Of a stretch of 64,000 nt of DNA, positions 53,232 through 61,792 are shown one piece after another (position 1 is the stretch's first letter; each line of letters opens with the position of its first letter). The translations under genes were made by a program, and so were the position numbers. The stretch is taken from positions 930,001-994,000 of the forward strand of contig NZ_FXWH01000001.1 of assembly GCF_900177775.1 (NCBI RefSeq), given 5' to 3'. Under the pieces are notes generated by a model, which searched no databases, was not told the origin of the DNA, and worked only from the letters and a program-made list of their open reading frames with translations. Origin of the DNA: Pseudidiomarina planktonica. Lineage in GTDB: Bacteria > Pseudomonadota > Gammaproteobacteria > Enterobacterales > Alteromonadaceae.

Positions 53232-53318
53232 TGGTGCGGAGGGGGGGACTTGAACCCCCACGAGCTTTCGCTCACTAGCACCTGAAGCTAGCGCGTCTAC
53301 CAATTCCGCCACCACCGC
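53232..53318 (-). tRNA. tRNA-Leu (CAG)
   Basis: 87-nt class II tRNA, anticodon loop TTCAGGT, long variable arm, T-arm GGGGG TTCAAGT CCCCC, encoded CCA. The acceptor stem GCGGTGG/CCTCCGC has a T-T mismatch at pair 5-68. A hairpin made by the CCA end and the following bases may help 3' processing. Last gene of the array. Confidence 0.95.
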
Positions 53319-53340
53319 AACAAAATAAAATAAGGTAATA

Positions 53341-53415
53341 TGGCTGGGGTACCAGGATTTGAACCTGGGAATGGCGGGATCAAAACCCGCTGCCTTACCG
53401 CTTGGCTATACCCCA
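53341..53415 (-). tRNA. tRNA-Gln (TTG), copy 2
   Basis: 75 nt, acceptor TGGGGTA/TACCCCA, anticodon loop TTTTGAT, encoded CCA. Identical to the copy 35 bp upstream, indicating recent duplication or gene conversion. Confidence 0.97.
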
Positions 53416-53450
53416 ACATAAATACCCAAAACATTCACAAAGCACAAGAT

Positions 53451-53525
53451 TGGCTGGGGTACCAGGATTTGAACCTGGGAATGGCGGGATCAAAACCCGC
53501 TGCCTTACCGCTTGGCTATACCCCA
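53451..53525 (-). tRNA. tRNA-Gln (TTG), copy 1
   Basis: 75 nt, identical in sequence to the second copy; anticodon TTG reads CAA and, by wobble, CAG. No tRNA-Gln(CTG) is in the array. Confidence 0.97.
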
Positions 53526-53547
53526 ATCCAGTATGTCGATTCAATAT

Positions 53548-53632
53548 TGGTGCGGACGGAGAGACTTGAACTCTCACGCCGTGAGGCACTGGAACCTAAA
53601 TCCAGCGTGTCTACCAATTCCACCACGTCCGC
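53548..53632 (-). tRNA. tRNA-Leu (TAG)
   Basis: 85-nt class II tRNA; acceptor GCGGACG/CGTCCGC fully paired, anticodon loop TTTAGGT, encoded CCA. Confidence 0.97.
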
Positions 53633-53640
53633 GAAAATAT

Positions 53641-53717
53641 TGGTGGCTACGGCGGGATTCGAACCTGCGACCCCAGCATTATGAGTGCTGTGCTCTAACC
53701 AACTGAGCTACGTAGCC
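53641..53717 (-). tRNA. Elongator tRNA-Met (CAT)
   Basis: 77 nt with acceptor GGCTACG/CGTAGCC (G1-C72 paired, unlike the initiator), CAT anticodon in a CACTCATAATG context, T-loop TTCGAAT and encoded CCA. First gene of the array Met-Leu-Gln-Gln-Leu, similar to the E. coli metT-leuW-gln series. Confidence 0.97.
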
Positions 53718-56113: not shown

Positions 56114-56770
56114 ATGATGCGACCACTGGGAAGCTCTTTTTTGATAGGTTTGTTGGCGCTGGTAACAACCGCAGCGCACAGCGAGCCGGTGCAAGTGACG
56201 CTAACGGATGCCAATGGCCAGCCGCTTGAATTCGCGGTCATAAGTGTTCCGGGTGAGCCCGGGCGTCCGCTGGAGCAGGCGATTATGGACCAAATTGACG
56301 TGCAGTTCCGGCCGCATGTGTTAACAGTGCCGGTGGGCAGTAAGGTACTGTTCCCGAACAGCGATAATATTCGTCATCACGTTTATTCATTCTCCGAAGC
56401 AAAAACATTTGAAACCCAGCTATATGCGAACGAAGCCCGGCCAACGATTTCCTTTGATACCGCCGGGATTGTTGCGCTTGGTTGCAACATTCATGACCAA
56501 ATGCGTGGCTACATTTATGTCAGCCCCCATCAGCAGAGCAATGTAACCGATGCAACTGGCCGTGCGACGGTCAATTTAAACGGCGATACCGAGTTGCTGA
56601 TTTGGCACCCGTGGCTGCAGCAACAAAAACGTGAACAAATCACAGTGGCGGTAAAAGACGACCAACGCGAGCTTAGTTTGCAGGTAGATGTGAAAGCTAC
56701 TGAACAAAGTGAAGAAAAACCGTCGCGTTTGCAGGAACGGTTTAATCGCAGGACAGGCAATGACGAGTAG
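56114..56770 (+). CDS. Exported cupredoxin-like copper protein (plastocyanin/methylamine-utilisation type)
   Basis: 218 residues with a signal peptide (about 1-23). A cupredoxin fold is indicated by candidate type 1 copper ligands: His in NIRHHVYSF (88 or 89), then Cys124, His127 and Met130 in GCNIHDQMRGYIYV. Proteins of this type are often labelled methylamine utilisation protein, without proof. The C-terminal part is polar, with a charged tail. ATG 56114 follows AGGAG. It overlaps the GGDEF/EAL gene by 11 nt and heads a five-gene operon. Electron transfer or copper/redox sensing in the periplasm is inferred. Confidence 0.88.
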   Translation: MMRPLGSSFLIGLLALVTTAAHSEPVQVTLTDANGQPLEFAVISVPGEPGRPLEQAIMDQIDVQFRPHVLTVPVGSKVLFPNSDNIRHHVYSFSEAKTFETQLYANEARPTISFDTAGIVALGCNIHDQMRGYIYVSPHQQSNVTDATGRATVNLNGDTELLIWHPWLQQQKREQITVAVKDDQRELSLQVDVKATEQSEEKPSRLQERFNRRTGNDE

Positions 56771-59057
56771 TTTTCGCACGCGATTAATTGTGTTGTTTGC
56801 CGGCCTGGCCGGCGGTGTGCTGTTGGTGTCTTTGCTGGCGGTGTGGATTGCCACCAATAACCAATTGAATCGCACCGTTGAACGAGAGCTCACGGTAAGT
56901 GAACGCGTGTTCCTTGAGTTAGTGGAACAACGGGCAACACAGTTAGGGCAGGCCGCCAGTGTATTAGCCGACGATTTTGGCTTCCGTCAGGCGGTAGCCA
57001 CCAACGATGAAGACACCATAGTGTCGGCACTGATAAATCACGGCGAACGCATTCAAACCGATTTGATGGTGCTGCAAAACGTAGCCGGGGAAGAAATAGC
57101 GTCCACCCACGATATGAGTGAGTTACCTGCACTTAATGAACTAATTGCTATGGGTAACGAGCAGGGCATTGCTATTGTTGACGAGCAAATATTTCAGTTA
57201 ATTACCGTACCCGTGCGAGCACCCGATTTAATCGCATGGGTTACCTTGGGTTTTAGCATAGACGCAGAGCTAACCTCTGAATTGCAAGCACTGGCGAATG
57301 CCGATGTAACTTTCTACAGTACCGATACCAATAGTTTGTTCGTGTCCAGTTTAAGCGCCGAGCAGCAACAAGAATTTCAGACCGGCCTTAGTGAACGCCA
57401 GCAAACTCTCAGCGAATGGTTAAATAACCAGCATCTGGCCGGTCAAAAAATTAGTCTGGCCAATCTTGGCGAAGCGTCGCTATCAGTGTTGCTAAGCACC
57501 GATTTGGATGCCGCTGGCGCCGAATTTTCTCGGTTACGTCAGCAATACCTGGTAATTGCTATTGCCACTTTACTGGTAGCACTGCTGCTGGCGGTAGTTA
57601 CCGCGCGTCGCATTAATGCCCCGTTAAAAACCCTGACCGAAGCGGCTGAGCAATTGCAGCGTGGCGATTACACTTCACCGATAAAAGTAGAGCGAAGCGA
57701 TGAATTTGGTCACTTAGCGAATACTTTCAATGAAATGAAAGTAGCCGTAGCCGAGCGTGAACAGCGCATATCTTTTCAGGCTGATCATGACTTACTCACC
57801 GAGCTACCAAACCGGCGTTATTTTCAACGGGCGCTGGCGAAAATGTTGGACACCAACCAAAGTGGCTTTTTGGTGTTACTGAATATCAACCGGTTCCGTG
57901 AACTAAACGACAGTGTTGGCCAGCGCATTGGCGATCAGTTATTACAGTTGATTTCGCGCCGGTTGCGTGGCTGGAAAAGCAGCGACTGGTTTCTGGCCCG
58001 GTTGGCCGGTGATGAATTTTTACTGGTAAATACTGCGTCAGACCACGCCCCCGTAGTGGGTGAAATTGAAGCCTTATTAGAACTCCTGCAACAGCCGTGG
58101 TCGCTAGACGGCACCAGCTACTTACTGACGTTTAGTGCCGGTATGGTGAGCTTCCCCGAACATGGCTCTGAAACCGATAGCCTGGTGCGACGAGCCCAGA
58201 TTAGCCGTGCTAAAGCGAAAGAAGACAAGCTTTCGTTGGTAATATATGAAGCCGGCATGGACGAAGTGCATATGCGCCAATTGCGTATTCTGCGTTGCTT
58301 GCCTGAAGCAGTTGAGAAAGACCAACTTGAGCTGCACTATCAGCCGAAAATGAACTGTGCAAACGGCAAAGTGAAAGGCGCAGAAGCGCTTATTCGCTGG
58401 CATCATCCTGACTTAGGATTTGTTCGCCCGGACGAATTTATTCCACTGGCGGAACAAGCTGGGGAAATTACCCGCATTACCCGTTGGGTTTGCCTGCAGG
58501 TTATTCAGCAACTGTTAGTTTGGCAGCAAGCCGGGAAGCAACTGTCGGTGTCGTTAAACTTGTCTGCGGTAGATTTAATGAGTGACGGCCTCGCCGACTT
58601 TTTAAGTCAGGCGGTGGCAAGTAGTGGCATTGAACCGCATTTACTAACGCTGGAAGTTACCGAAAGCGCCATTATGCATGACCCGGAAGCGGCTATTGCC
58701 CGGTTGCAGCGATTGCAAAGTGTTGGTTTGCGTATCTCGATTGATGACTACGGCACCGGCTATTCGTCGCTGGCGCAGTTAAAACGCTTACCGGTTAACG
58801 AGTTAAAAATCGACCGCTCCTTTATTCAGCACCTGGCCGAAAGCGAGCAGGATCGCATGATAGTACGCTCAACGCTGGCGCTGGCTCATGATTTTGGGCT
58901 ACAAGCGGTAGCTGAAGGTATTGAAGAAGAGTCGGCCTGGACTATTTTAAAAGAATTTGGTTGTGACGAACTGCAGGGCTACTACTTCAGTAAGCCACTG
59001 CCGGTTGCTGAATTTACTCAGTGGCTGCTAACACAGGAAGAGGTGATTTCATCATGA
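56760..59057 (+). CDS. Membrane GGDEF/EAL protein with periplasmic sensor and HAMP
   Basis: 765 residues. TM1 (about 8-30), a periplasmic sensor region of about 225 residues, TM2 (about 262-283), HAMP (about 285-335), a GGDEF domain and an EAL domain. The diguanylate-cyclase signature is AGDEF (416-420) and the RxxD inhibitory site is degenerate (KSSD, one residue out of register). The EAL domain looks intact: EALIRWHHP at 542, loop 6 DDYGTGYSSL at 662, and KIDRSFI. Net phosphodiesterase activity is the likelier reading. ATG 56760 follows AGGACAGG and overlaps the cupredoxin stop. The stop overlaps the next start (ATGA). Confidence 0.95.
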   Translation: MTSSFRTRLIVLFAGLAGGVLLVSLLAVWIATNNQLNRTVERELTVSERVFLELVEQRATQLGQAASVLADDFGFRQAVATNDEDTIVSALINHGERIQTDLMVLQNVAGEEIASTHDMSELPALNELIAMGNEQGIAIVDEQIFQLITVPVRAPDLIAWVTLGFSIDAELTSELQALANADVTFYSTDTNSLFVSSLSAEQQQEFQTGLSERQQTLSEWLNNQHLAGQKISLANLGEASLSVLLSTDLDAAGAEFSRLRQQYLVIAIATLLVALLLAVVTARRINAPLKTLTEAAEQLQRGDYTSPIKVERSDEFGHLANTFNEMKVAVAEREQRISFQADHDLLTELPNRRYFQRALAKMLDTNQSGFLVLLNINRFRELNDSVGQRIGDQLLQLISRRLRGWKSSDWFLARLAGDEFLLVNTASDHAPVVGEIEALLELLQQPWSLDGTSYLLTFSAGMVSFPEHGSETDSLVRRAQISRAKAKEDKLSLVIYEAGMDEVHMRQLRILRCLPEAVEKDQLELHYQPKMNCANGKVKGAEALIRWHHPDLGFVRPDEFIPLAEQAGEITRITRWVCLQVIQQLLVWQQAGKQLSVSLNLSAVDLMSDGLADFLSQAVASSGIEPHLLTLEVTESAIMHDPEAAIARLQRLQSVGLRISIDDYGTGYSSLAQLKRLPVNELKIDRSFIQHLAESEQDRMIVRSTLALAHDFGLQAVAEGIEEESAWTILKEFGCDELQGYYFSKPLPVAEFTQWLLTQEEVISS

Positions 59058-59908
59058 TAAAAACCAAGCAACTGGCTTTAACCACTGGAATTTTGGTTGT
59101 GTGCTTAGGCGCCACAGCGCCGACCTACGCCGATAACGGGCGTTTGTTAGCAACTGGTGCCGCATCTACTGTTGAGGGCACCAGTGGCGGCGGTATTGTG
59201 CCCTGGGCTACGTTGAGCAGCTATGCCAGTGAAAATCAGTGGGGCGCCACTGTGGCCCTTGGTGAAGTGCAGGTGGATGACTTTCGGTTATCGGTGCAAG
59301 GCGCTAGTTTAACTTATGGCAATCGGGTGGAAGTGTCATACGCCAATCAGGTGTTTGACTTAAAAACCATCGGCGGTGAACTTAAACAGGACATTTTCGG
59401 CCTGAAAGTGCGCGCCTTTGGAGACTTAATTTACGGTGATTTGCCGCAGGTCAGTGTCGGCTTGCAGCATAAACGCAATCGAACTTTTGAGTTACCACAA
59501 GCGGTAGGTGCCACCGATGATTCAGGAACCGATGTTTATATTAGTGCGGCCAAGGCCTGGTTAGATGGCCCGTTTCACCGAACCTGGCTGGTGAATGTAA
59601 CGGCCCGCGCAACCAAAGCCAACCAGTTGGGGTTATTAGGGTTCGGTGGTGATAAAGACGACGATTACAGCATTCAGGCGGAAGCTTCAGTAGCCATGTT
59701 TATTAACCGTAAGCTGGCGGTTGGGGTAGAGTATCGGCAAAAGCCTGATAATTTAGGCTTTGCCCGTGAAGAAGATTGGTACGATGCCTTTGTTGCTTAC
59801 TTCCCAACCAAGTCACTGTCTATTGTTGGGGCTTACACCGACTTGCAATCTATTGCCGGGTTGGACGACCAGGATGGCTTCTATTTGTCCCTGCAAGGTA
59901 CCTTTTAA
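59054..59908 (+). CDS. DUF3034-type exported, probably outer-membrane beta-barrel protein
   Basis: 284 residues with a signal peptide ending near TYA-DNG. The rest is rich in alternating polar/hydrophobic, aromatic-ended segments (VEVSYANQVFDL, LAVGVEYRQ, LSIVGAYTDL) and ends in a terminal Phe, as in outer-membrane beta-barrels. From recall it belongs to the DUF3034 family, which has no known function. ATG 59054 follows GAGGTGA and overlaps the GGDEF/EAL stop by 4 nt. It could be a porin-like or surface-exposed partner of the system. Confidence 0.8.
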   Translation: MIKTKQLALTTGILVVCLGATAPTYADNGRLLATGAASTVEGTSGGGIVPWATLSSYASENQWGATVALGEVQVDDFRLSVQGASLTYGNRVEVSYANQVFDLKTIGGELKQDIFGLKVRAFGDLIYGDLPQVSVGLQHKRNRTFELPQAVGATDDSGTDVYISAAKAWLDGPFHRTWLVNVTARATKANQLGLLGFGGDKDDDYSIQAEASVAMFINRKLAVGVEYRQKPDNLGFAREEDWYDAFVAYFPTKSLSIVGAYTDLQSIAGLDDQDGFYLSLQGTF

Positions 59909-59920
59909 GGAGAACCAGAT

Positions 59921-60343
59921 ATGATTTTTAAAACTCGTTTAATTGCGGTTATGCTGCTAATGGGGCTGTCCGGATCCGTGCAGGCAGATGACTCTTTGTA
60001 TCAGGAGCTTGGTGGCAAAGAAGGCATCAGTAATGTCATGGCTGAAATGCTGTACGAACTCGCCGGTGATGACCGCATTGCCGACCAATTTGCGGATACC
60101 GATATTGACCGTTTGCATCAAATGCTAACCGAGCAGGTATGTGAAATCAGTGGCGGGCCTTGCACTTACACTGGTGAAGACATGGTGAAAATTCACACCG
60201 GGTTGAATATTACCAACGCCGATTTTAATGCGCTGGTAGAGAATTTGATTATTGCCATGGAACGCGAAGAAATACCCACTACGGCACAGAATCGCTTGTT
60301 GAGCTTATTGGCTGACATGCATCACGAAGTGGTTGGGTTGTAA
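59921..60343 (+). CDS. Exported group 1 truncated haemoglobin
   Basis: 140 residues: a signal peptide (about 1-22) followed by a 2-on-2 globin of the trHbN type. LYQELGGKEGI and the proximal His in DMVKIHTGLNI (His92) are diagnostic. By eye, the distal positions B10, E7 and E11 are Leu44, Leu65 and Leu69, not the Tyr/Gln pair of classical trHbN. Two Cys (74 and 81, in CEISGGPC) could pair in the oxidising periplasm. The export signal is unusual for a globin. It begins 12 bp after the DUF3034 gene. Oxygen/NO binding or redox sensing is inferred. Confidence 0.92.
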   Translation: MIFKTRLIAVMLLMGLSGSVQADDSLYQELGGKEGISNVMAEMLYELAGDDRIADQFADTDIDRLHQMLTEQVCEISGGPCTYTGEDMVKIHTGLNITNADFNALVENLIIAMEREEIPTTAQNRLLSLLADMHHEVVGL

Positions 60344-60348
60344 GCAGT

Positions 60349-61725
60349 ATGGCGAAGTTTAAAATCCCGCACACGCTGGTATTAATGACCTACTTAATGC
60401 TGGCGGCTCTGGTTCTAACCTGGATTATTCCCGCCGGTAGCTTCGACAGAACTGAAAATGCTGCCGGACAAACAGTAGTGCTACAGGGCACTTTTGCAAC
60501 CATAGAAGATCAGCCGGGGGTTAACCCGCTGAACTTGTTTACCGTTATTCCACGTGCGCTGGCCGATGCGCAGGGCGTGATCTTCTTTGTGTTTCTGATT
60601 GGCGGGGTGATGGGCATTATCCGTAAAACCGGCATGCTAGATGCGGTTATCGGACGCCTGTTAGAAAACTTTGCGGGTAAAACCGGCTGGCTTATTTTCG
60701 GTGGCATGCTGACCTTTGGTATTTTTTCAGCGCTCATTGGCGTAGCCGAAGAGTACCTTATCTTTGTGGCTTTGTTAGTGTCGCTGTGTCGAGCCTTAAA
60801 GCTTGATGCTATTGCAGCTATGGGTATTTTAATTGTTGGCTATGGTATTGGTTACGGGTTGTCGTTATTTAATCCGTTTACACTACTTATTGCCCAGTCT
60901 ATAGCCGAAGTGCAGCCGGCATCGGGGCTCGAGTACCGCCTTATGCTGTGGGTACCTATGTTTGCCATTGGCTTTCATCATGTGTATCGCTATTCGCGGC
61001 GAGTACTGAAGAACCCGAAAAACTCGTTGTTACACGACGTGAGCGGCGCCAATGCGCCTGAGGAAGAGAAAACCTATCCAGCTCTGAATGGCCAGCATAA
61101 GATTATATTGCTGGGCTTCGTGGCTGTTTTAATTACGTTAGTGTGGGGTATTACTCAGTATGGCTGGTATTTAACCGAGCTCAGCGCGTTGTTTTTAGGG
61201 TTAGGCGTATTTGCGGCCATAGTGGGGCGGTTGTCTACTGATGACGCCGCGCGCACCTTTATTGAGGGTGCTGCCGAATTAACCGCAACCGCGTTACTCA
61301 TTGGTTTTGCGCGTTCCATTGCTTTGCTGCTGGAAGACGGTCAGGTACTGGACACTGTTATTTACTATTTGTCGATGCCGGTAGAGGCGTCAGGCGCGCA
61401 TTTAGGCGCCGTTATGATGCTGGTTATTCAGTCGCTGCTGAACTTCTTTATTCCGTCGGGTAGTGGTCAGGCGTTTGTAACCATGCCGATTATGGTGCCT
61501 ATTGCGGACACTTCCGGGATTGGCCGTCAGGTGGCCGTATTAGCCTTTCAAATGGGTGATGGCCTGATGAATATGATAGTACCAACCAACCCAGTGTTAA
61601 TGGGTATTCTGGGGCTGGCGGGTATACCTTACGATCGCTGGTTTAAGTTCGTCGCGCCCTTGTTGGTGAAGCTATTGATATTCTGCGCGGTTGCTTTGGT
61701 GATTGCGGTGAGTATTGGTTACTAA
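60349..61725 (+). CDS. YfcC/DcuC-family membrane carrier
   Basis: 458-residue inner-membrane protein with about 12 TM helices of the C4-dicarboxylate carrier/YfcC family (PF03606 type). The N-terminal VLTWIIPAGSF and the C-terminal IPSGSGQAFVTMPIMVPIAD and DGLMNMIVPTNPVLMGIL are family landmarks. The substrate (dicarboxylate, amino acid or short-chain acid) is unknown. It starts 5 bp after the globin stop, so it is co-transcribed with the cupredoxin-globin operon; whether it is functionally linked is open. Confidence 0.9.
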   Translation: MAKFKIPHTLVLMTYLMLAALVLTWIIPAGSFDRTENAAGQTVVLQGTFATIEDQPGVNPLNLFTVIPRALADAQGVIFFVFLIGGVMGIIRKTGMLDAVIGRLLENFAGKTGWLIFGGMLTFGIFSALIGVAEEYLIFVALLVSLCRALKLDAIAAMGILIVGYGIGYGLSLFNPFTLLIAQSIAEVQPASGLEYRLMLWVPMFAIGFHHVYRYSRRVLKNPKNSLLHDVSGANAPEEEKTYPALNGQHKIILLGFVAVLITLVWGITQYGWYLTELSALFLGLGVFAAIVGRLSTDDAARTFIEGAAELTATALLIGFARSIALLLEDGQVLDTVIYYLSMPVEASGAHLGAVMMLVIQSLLNFFIPSGSGQAFVTMPIMVPIADTSGIGRQVAVLAFQMGDGLMNMIVPTNPVLMGILGLAGIPYDRWFKFVAPLLVKLLIFCAVALVIAVSIGY

Positions 61726-61753: not shown

Positions 61754-61792
61754 AAAAAAAGCGCTCACCGGATAACCCGTGAGCGCTTTTTT
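61754..61792. terminator. Bidirectional terminator between the carrier and ychF
   Basis: Stem GCGCTCAC-C-GG / CC-C-GTGAGCGC with one mismatch and an ATAA loop, flanked by an A-run and a T-run, so it can terminate both converging transcripts. Confidence 0.9.

Follow-up and report, generated by a model that had tools for sequence, protein, structure and literature searches.

Four genes that stay together

Why do an exported cupredoxin, a membrane enzyme of cyclic di-GMP (c-di-GMP) metabolism, an outer-membrane-like protein and an exported globin share one tight gene cluster? The question is raised by a locus of Pseudidiomarina planktonica within a stretch of 64,000 nucleotides (nt) of contig NZ_FXWH01000001.1, hereafter called the window, whose positions serve as coordinates throughout. 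Five genes, all on the plus strand together with the domains described below, follow one another there: a type-1-copper cupredoxin (gene 1, 56114-56770, 218 amino acids, export signal peptide judged by eye), a sensor protein with GGDEF and EAL domains (gene 2, 56760-59057, 765 amino acids counted from the ATG at 56760), a DUF3034 protein (gene 3, 59054-59908, 284 amino acids counted from the ATG at 59054), an exported group-1 truncated globin (gene 4, 59921-60343, 140 amino acids) and a YfcC/DcuC-type carrier (gene 5, 60349-61725, 458 amino acids, Pfam DcuC), the last lying outside the conserved set. From genome comparison and structure prediction we consider it probable, with moderate confidence, that genes 1 to 4 together form a trans-envelope sensory module whose output is the hydrolysis of c-di-GMP.

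The five coupled genes were found as the initial annotation had placed them, with overlaps of 11 and 4 nt and gaps of 12 and 5 nt. Among relatives, for which gene starts were estimated from alignments, the three inner junctions measure at most 30 nt in 75/76, 73/76 and 84/86 loci. Because these junctions stay so short in nearly all relatives' loci, the comparison indicates that the gene arrangement is not due to chance. Downstream of gene 5 lies a strong hairpin resembling an intrinsic terminator (61755-61792, plus strand; -24.3 kcal/mol over a 56-nt stretch, z = -6.3, equally good folds in 0 of 200 shuffles), so that all five genes may be co-transcribed in the window.

Conservation was evaluated in a sample of 274 genomes drawn evenly from the class. 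DUF3034 was encoded in 15 of them, the window genome included, and all four genes occurred together in eight of these 15 (the window, L016, L017, L018, L019, L021, L022 and L023; in L016 with frame-broken open reading frames, ORFs). L024 has cupredoxin, globin and DUF3034 and no sensor, and in L020 DUF3034 adjoins a cupredoxin whose sensor is a Ser/Thr kinase. At least 544 stretches that code for a relative of DUF3034 were counted in a collection holding one genome for each species, so that a function of the set would apply widely. Among the best 80 of these at least 544 relatives, a choice that overstates conservation and for which the class sample and a phylum sample of 398 genomes are the fairer measures, the globin is present in 80 loci, the cupredoxin in 74 and the full set on one strand in 73; three of the seven incomplete loci (L038, L086 and L093) reach a contig end. 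This neighbourhood search bears out the statement of the initial annotation that marine gammaproteobacteria have the first four gene types side by side, but not a restriction to that group: in addition to Idiomarina, Pseudidiomarina, Aliidiomarina, Shewanella, Marinobacter and Rheinheimera, the hosts of the 80 loci include Pseudomonas, Stutzerimonas, Xanthomonas and Pseudoxanthomonas, and five genomes outside the class have the genes as well. Gene 5 was considered for the set as well and was rejected as a member, as it is found in 5 of the 80 loci. No further neighbour is comparably conserved around these loci, the next flanking family (a short-chain dehydrogenase by eye) occurring in 18 of 80.

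The order of the genes varies between genomes. Globin and DUF3034 are divergent from cupredoxin and sensor in the five genomes outside the class (L215, L231, L232, L233 and L235), and in L021 DUF3034 is divergent from globin-cupredoxin-sensor. The order is DUF3034-globin-cupredoxin in L024, cupredoxin-DUF3034-globin with the sensor elsewhere in L214, and globin-cupredoxin-sensor with DUF3034 absent in L206. Altogether, the genes remain grouped in at least six arrangements. Since the set stays together through rearrangement, selection appears to act on the gene group, and judged from gene neighbourhoods genes 1 to 4 make up one conserved group.

Pairing of the cupredoxin with a sensor domain

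A profile of the cupredoxin matched 59 of the 274 class genomes at E ≤ 1e-3, and the 22 places at E ≤ 1e-29 were taken as strong; for the weaker places (E > 1e-29) the surroundings were read for some. Sixteen of the 22 strong places adjoin the same sensor-domain profile, a further four have a Cache-Ser/Thr-kinase either next to them or no more than about 2 kb away, and two have none. A Cache-type membrane sensor is thereby found close to 20 of the 22 (about 2 kb at most), its output being GGDEF-EAL, cyclase, histidine kinase or Ser/Thr kinase. The phylum sample contained 56 genomes with a cupredoxin at E ≤ 1e-15, corresponding to 61 places, of which 54 were examined and 52 classified (L230 and L234 were dropped because the ORF scan gave no cupredoxin). 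A sensor-profile protein was present within 3.2 kb at 42 of the 52 places: 26 combine sensor-GGDEF-EAL with DUF3034 and globin, 12 have sensor-GGDEF-EAL without DUF3034 (one of them with globin), two have a sensor-cyclase, one a sensor-Ser/Thr kinase and one (L242) a hybrid histidine kinase. L243, counted among the places with none, has a hybrid histidine kinase beyond the reach of the sensor profile.

For chosen members, Pfam assigned the outputs as Guanylate_cyc in L170 and L174, HisKA/HATPase in L171, GGDEF/EAL in L176, Pkinase in L020, L178, L179, L180 and L181, and, for L242 and L243, hybrid histidine kinase next to CCP_MauG; the MauG-type peroxidase of L242 stands between cupredoxin and kinase. 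The Pfam Cache match is below the cut-off in L171, L178 and L181, and L176, L242 and L243 have no such match listed. Searching in the opposite direction, with only the sensor domain as query (E ≤ 1e-12), gave 20 places in 19 of the 274 genomes; at 17 of these places a cupredoxin match is no more than about 3 kb away (one of the 17, in G259, being weak). Counted by genome, the sensor is present in 16/20 genomes with a strong cupredoxin versus 3/254 others (Fisher p = 1.5e-19, relatedness ignored). Of eight genomes that were checked for having a cupredoxin without an adjacent sensor, seven hold exactly one sensor (E ≤ 1e-8), which is on another contig or far off in five and adjoins another cupredoxin copy in two.

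Together, these neighbourhoods indicate a tight pairing of the cupredoxin with this sensor domain and an exchange of the output, with phosphodiesterase, cyclase, histidine kinase and Ser/Thr kinase as alternatives. Because the pairing persists across differing output domains and, in many cases, differing barrels, we read the cupredoxin as the input, and the comparison suggests that it is the sensor's signalling partner. The locus has a cupredoxin beside a dCache-type sensor, by which, whatever the output, we propose to recognize a cupredoxin-Cache sensor module. As the same input pair occurs on four kinds of output, the idea is testable in the easiest host, and the exchanges of input and output are evolution's own natural experiments.

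Membrane Ser/Thr-kinases directly adjoin the cupredoxin in several proteobacteria (L178, L179, L181 and L020 by Pfam, L241 by its own profile). More distant cupredoxin relatives adjoin MauG-type di-haem peroxidases (L242 and L243 by Pfam; L248, L184 and L250 by eye), with hybrid histidine kinases as well in L242 and L243; these relatives may be a second group that senses through copper and haem.

The sensor protein and probable c-di-GMP hydrolysis

Gene 2 has the Pfam architecture dCache_3, HAMP, GGDEF and EAL. The periplasmic dCache_3 sensor (56874-57413, residues 39-218) scored 47.6 bits against a cut-off of 25.7 and has a conserved DFGF region; a sequence search found no relative of this domain with a solved structure. 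The GGDEF domain (57780-58226) carries the degenerate motif AGDEF and not the one expected of a diguanylate cyclase, and the EAL domain (58299-58997) has the complete catalytic series E-N-E-D-D-K-E-Q. Among 80 relatives of gene 2, scored for the EAL metal and catalytic residues and excluding L020, where Pfam gives a Ser/Thr kinase, these residues are complete in 80/80, and a canonical GG[DE]EF is present in just 14/80. On account of these two counts, the gene 2 product is most likely a c-di-GMP phosphodiesterase.

A second sensor-phosphodiesterase gene lies near the operon copy in nine Pseudomonas loci (L065, L071, L072, L076, L079, L084, L089, L090 and L102). In L089 it is downstream of the globin, and in the other eight it precedes the cupredoxin gene; EAL is kept in both copies and a canonical GGDEF is absent from both. 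The window genome (G000, 2.57 Mb) has 18 EAL-domain matches, so that the gene 2 phosphodiesterase is one among many.

Cupredoxin, barrel and globin

No cupredoxin model of Pfam matched gene 1, which gave two weak matches below the cut-off to other families; a profile of 17 gene 1 relatives matched, although weakly (best E = 0.0012), copper nitrite reductases as well as a blue copper protein. According to the AlphaFold2 model (predicted local distance difference test score, pLDDT, 90), residues 53-138 (56270-56527) form a plastocyanin/amicyanin-like domain that sits as an insertion in a beta-sandwich resembling the carboxypeptidase-regulatory/SusC-NTE domain. Of the type-1 copper ligands, H88 is kept in 83/83 sequences and C124, H127 and M130 in 82/83 each, the exception being a truncated ORF. 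With the fold and the His/Cys/His/Met ligand set of a type-1 copper cupredoxin, the protein is predicted to bind copper. Both features are common to amicyanin, plastocyanin and pseudoazurin; unlike these, however, the gene 1 domain is nested in a second beta-sandwich, and the genes of its family accompany those of sensors, not those of electron-transport enzymes. The sandwich in turn differs from the SusC NTE/carboxypeptidase-regulatory domain in holding an inserted cupredoxin and in lacking a fusion to a barrel. At its C-terminal end (residues 205-215, 56726-56758) the protein has a short predicted helix whose recurring tail is of L..F type, with a loose pattern matched in 71/83 sequences; this end could be a docking peptide.

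Gene 3 matched DUF3034 with E = 4.7e-107. As the initial annotation had supposed, it is predicted to be an outer-membrane beta-barrel, with an even number of strands (12) and an export signal peptide recognized by eye, and it matches FapF, KdgM and the COG4313 channel. Residues 24-54 (59123-59215), with a strongly conserved EGxxGGGxxPW, were not placed by the AlphaFold2 model and are a candidate plug or partner-binding segment. Weak sequence matches to designed Ika proteins and NPC1 were put aside as probably due to chance. The barrel might instead be a secretion channel, comparable to that of FapF amyloid secretion, in an operon that makes or exports a matrix component under c-di-GMP control; we hold this to be very improbable.

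Barrels were also sought among the neighbours of the cupredoxin, where candidates were chosen by eye from length, position and ends and then clustered. Four clusters are barrel-like, with 13 members (about 410 amino acids), five members (about 300 amino acids) and two pairs; the pair L210/L216 and four single proteins were left out as not barrel-like by eye. Members of these four other families adjoin the cupredoxin at 21 of the 37 places that lack DUF3034 (L170-L181 and 25 phylum places). The 13-member family, aligned without L199 (12/13 used), gave weak Porin_4 matches in 4/12 scanned, and one pair includes the protein of L020 (a Porin_5 match), a locus with a divergent DUF3034 in addition. 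No homology of the two larger families to DUF3034 was found by hhalign (probability 3.6% and 6.9%).

The globin retains the F8 His92 in 88/88 sequences and the CD1 Phe57 in 86/88, and Cys74 and Cys81 are invariant (88/88). Its match to Pfam Bac_globin, these F8 and CD1 residues and its relatives of solved structure identify it as a group-1 truncated globin, for which haem loading is predicted. Most relatives are lipoproteins by their lipobox, and the window globin is apparently soluble. The family profile and F8 His are common to the solved group-1 truncated globins (8tls and relatives; mycobacterial HbN), but the window globin is exported and has two invariant Cys that the aligned solved chains lack. 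HbN-like O2/nitric oxide (NO) dioxygenase globins have B10 Tyr and E11 Gln as distal pair. At positions 44 and 69, presumed to be B10 and E11 from an assignment by hand, Leu is found in 70/88 and 72/88 sequences, respectively. Aliphatic residues at these two presumed distal sites hint at a role other than tight O2 binding, an idea that is weakened because the nearest solved globins also carry non-polar residues (Phe, Val) there.

Sites upstream of the operon

Regulatory sites were counted in 83 upstream regions and in mononucleotide shuffles of these (observed versus shuffled). No clear enrichment was seen in the 83 regions for FNR/ANR (40 versus 34.2), NsrR-like (6 versus 4.2), CueR-like (4 versus 4.8) or Fur sites (0 versus 0.4), and the counts were 8 versus 9.0 for RpoN, 14 versus 10.0 for RpoE and 8 versus 11.2 for RpoH. 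The CueR-like count bears on copper-status sensing, by which the cupredoxin would report periplasmic copper to the sensor through being loaded or empty, with the barrel as copper channel and the globin as an accessory. In addition to the lack of enrichment of such sites, neither a copper pump nor an oxidase was noticed by eye in the 25 families that most often flank the loci; type-1 copper sites are usually redox carriers, and the globin remains unexplained. We therefore regard copper-status sensing as unlikely.

FliA-like sites were found 25 times versus 9.8 in shuffles. A promoter resembling that of flagellar sigma-28 exceeded the 99th percentile of resampled sequences in 18/83 regions, namely six of Xanthomonas, nine of Pseudomonas, Aliidiomarina L039, the Idiomarina metagenome-assembled genome L042 and L023. 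These sites hint at a motility output, limited to the lineages that have them.

A possible mechanism and its alternatives

In the sensory module that we favour, the periplasmic type-1-copper protein would be the input partner of the Cache-domain membrane sensor, and the DUF3034 outer-membrane barrel and the exported globin would complete the outer side. The cupredoxin would react with the globin, or with a redox-active molecule arriving via the barrel, and its resulting metal state (Cu(I)/Cu(II), or loaded/empty) would alter how it contacts dCache. From there a signal would run through HAMP to the EAL domain, changing c-di-GMP and hence the choice between motile and sessile life. We infer the physical contact, the direction and nature of the signal (redox, copper, NO or O2) and the effect on motility or biofilm. 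Because a haem protein recurs beside the cupredoxin (the globin, or the MauG-type peroxidase in L242 and L243), the comparison suggests that redox chemistry between copper and haem is the thing sensed.

Several observations weigh against such a module. Five of the 15 DUF3034 genomes of the class, with divergent or partial copies, have the gene without any partner (one at a contig end), 10/52 phylum cupredoxin places are without a sensor-profile protein within 3.2 kb, and 3/20 sensor places, all three GGDEF-EAL proteins, have no cupredoxin nearby. G107 has cupredoxin, globin and DUF3034 and no sensor at E ≤ 1e-8, and at 16/37 cupredoxin places that lack DUF3034 none of the four barrel families is represented. 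The sigma-28-like sites cluster in related Xanthomonas (six) and Pseudomonas (nine), with none in the window. Copper and haem loading are themselves predicted, and all support for the module is comparative or drawn from structure models. Finally, a mirror-tree comparison of distance matrices (49 loci, after L020, L021, L024, L051 and L058 and then near-identical sequences had been dropped) gave r = 0.70 for cupredoxin and sensor versus 0.85 for cupredoxin and EAL, which does not favour contact. In the proposal of the initial annotation that the copper and haem proteins signal to the GGDEF/EAL protein, the part on the cupredoxin gains from the pairing across differing outputs, but not from this contact test.

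The absence of a special cupredoxin-sensor signal in the mirror-tree would fit a shared physiology without contact, in which the phosphodiesterase is merely co-expressed with a cupredoxin, globin and barrel that carry out redox or NO chemistry in the periplasm. The occurrence of the input genes without an adjacent sensor (L024, L054 and L214) and the location of weaker cupredoxin relatives beside MauG-type peroxidases and cytochromes agree with this explanation. Against it, the cupredoxin keeps to the sensor domain and not to one type of output, and the five genomes with split genes retain both cupredoxin and sensor; on balance it appears improbable to us.

As a tentative extension of the sensory module, the loci might represent a new class of trans-envelope receptor in which a blue copper protein acts as first messenger through its oxidation state: a partner haem protein (the globin or, in some relatives, a MauG-type peroxidase), or an external redox compound admitted by the barrel, would charge or discharge the cupredoxin, and a dedicated Cache domain joined to c-di-GMP, cyclic-nucleotide, two-component or Ser/Thr-kinase outputs would read its state. 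Such a redox messenger, if true, would be new in kind. If the sensory module is right, DUF3034 would gain a role, as would a widespread family of cupredoxins with none found described, and a blue copper protein would serve signalling instead of electron transport.

Relation to described systems

That the set has no described function, as the initial annotation had stated, agrees with our literature search, which covered few subscription papers and found no description of the four-gene set or of cupredoxin-coupled sensors; as far as their accessible portions go, PMC3770913 and PMC5835511 deal with other subjects. YfiBNR of Pseudomonas aeruginosa is a tripartite c-di-GMP system that reacts to a periplasmic signal and, like the four-gene set, comprises an outer-membrane part, a periplasmic part and an inner-membrane c-di-GMP enzyme (accessible portions of PMC4655355 and PMC4887326). 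Because of this resemblance in architecture, we place the set within trans-envelope signalling and not in a category of its own. It differs from YfiBNR in having a probable phosphodiesterase, a barrel as outer-membrane part and an output domain that depends on lineage. Neither YfiR nor YfiB is a copper or haem protein, and YfiN acts as a cyclase. No Pfam match to YfiR, YfiB or YfiN was found, and the NCBIfam DgcN/YfiN match in gene 2 spans residues 263-480 only (116.8 bits versus a cut-off of 325). An outer-membrane or periplasmic protein also feeds an inner-membrane sensor in NlpE-CpxA and RcsF-IgaA, and NlpE has been linked to copper; unlike these, the four-gene set has a cupredoxin, a globin and a dedicated barrel in a shared operon.

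Elsewhere in the window, five minus-strand tRNA genes (Leu, Gln, Gln, Leu and Met) lie at 53232-53717. An ORF of 114 amino acids (53340-53684) overlies them and is probably an artefact.
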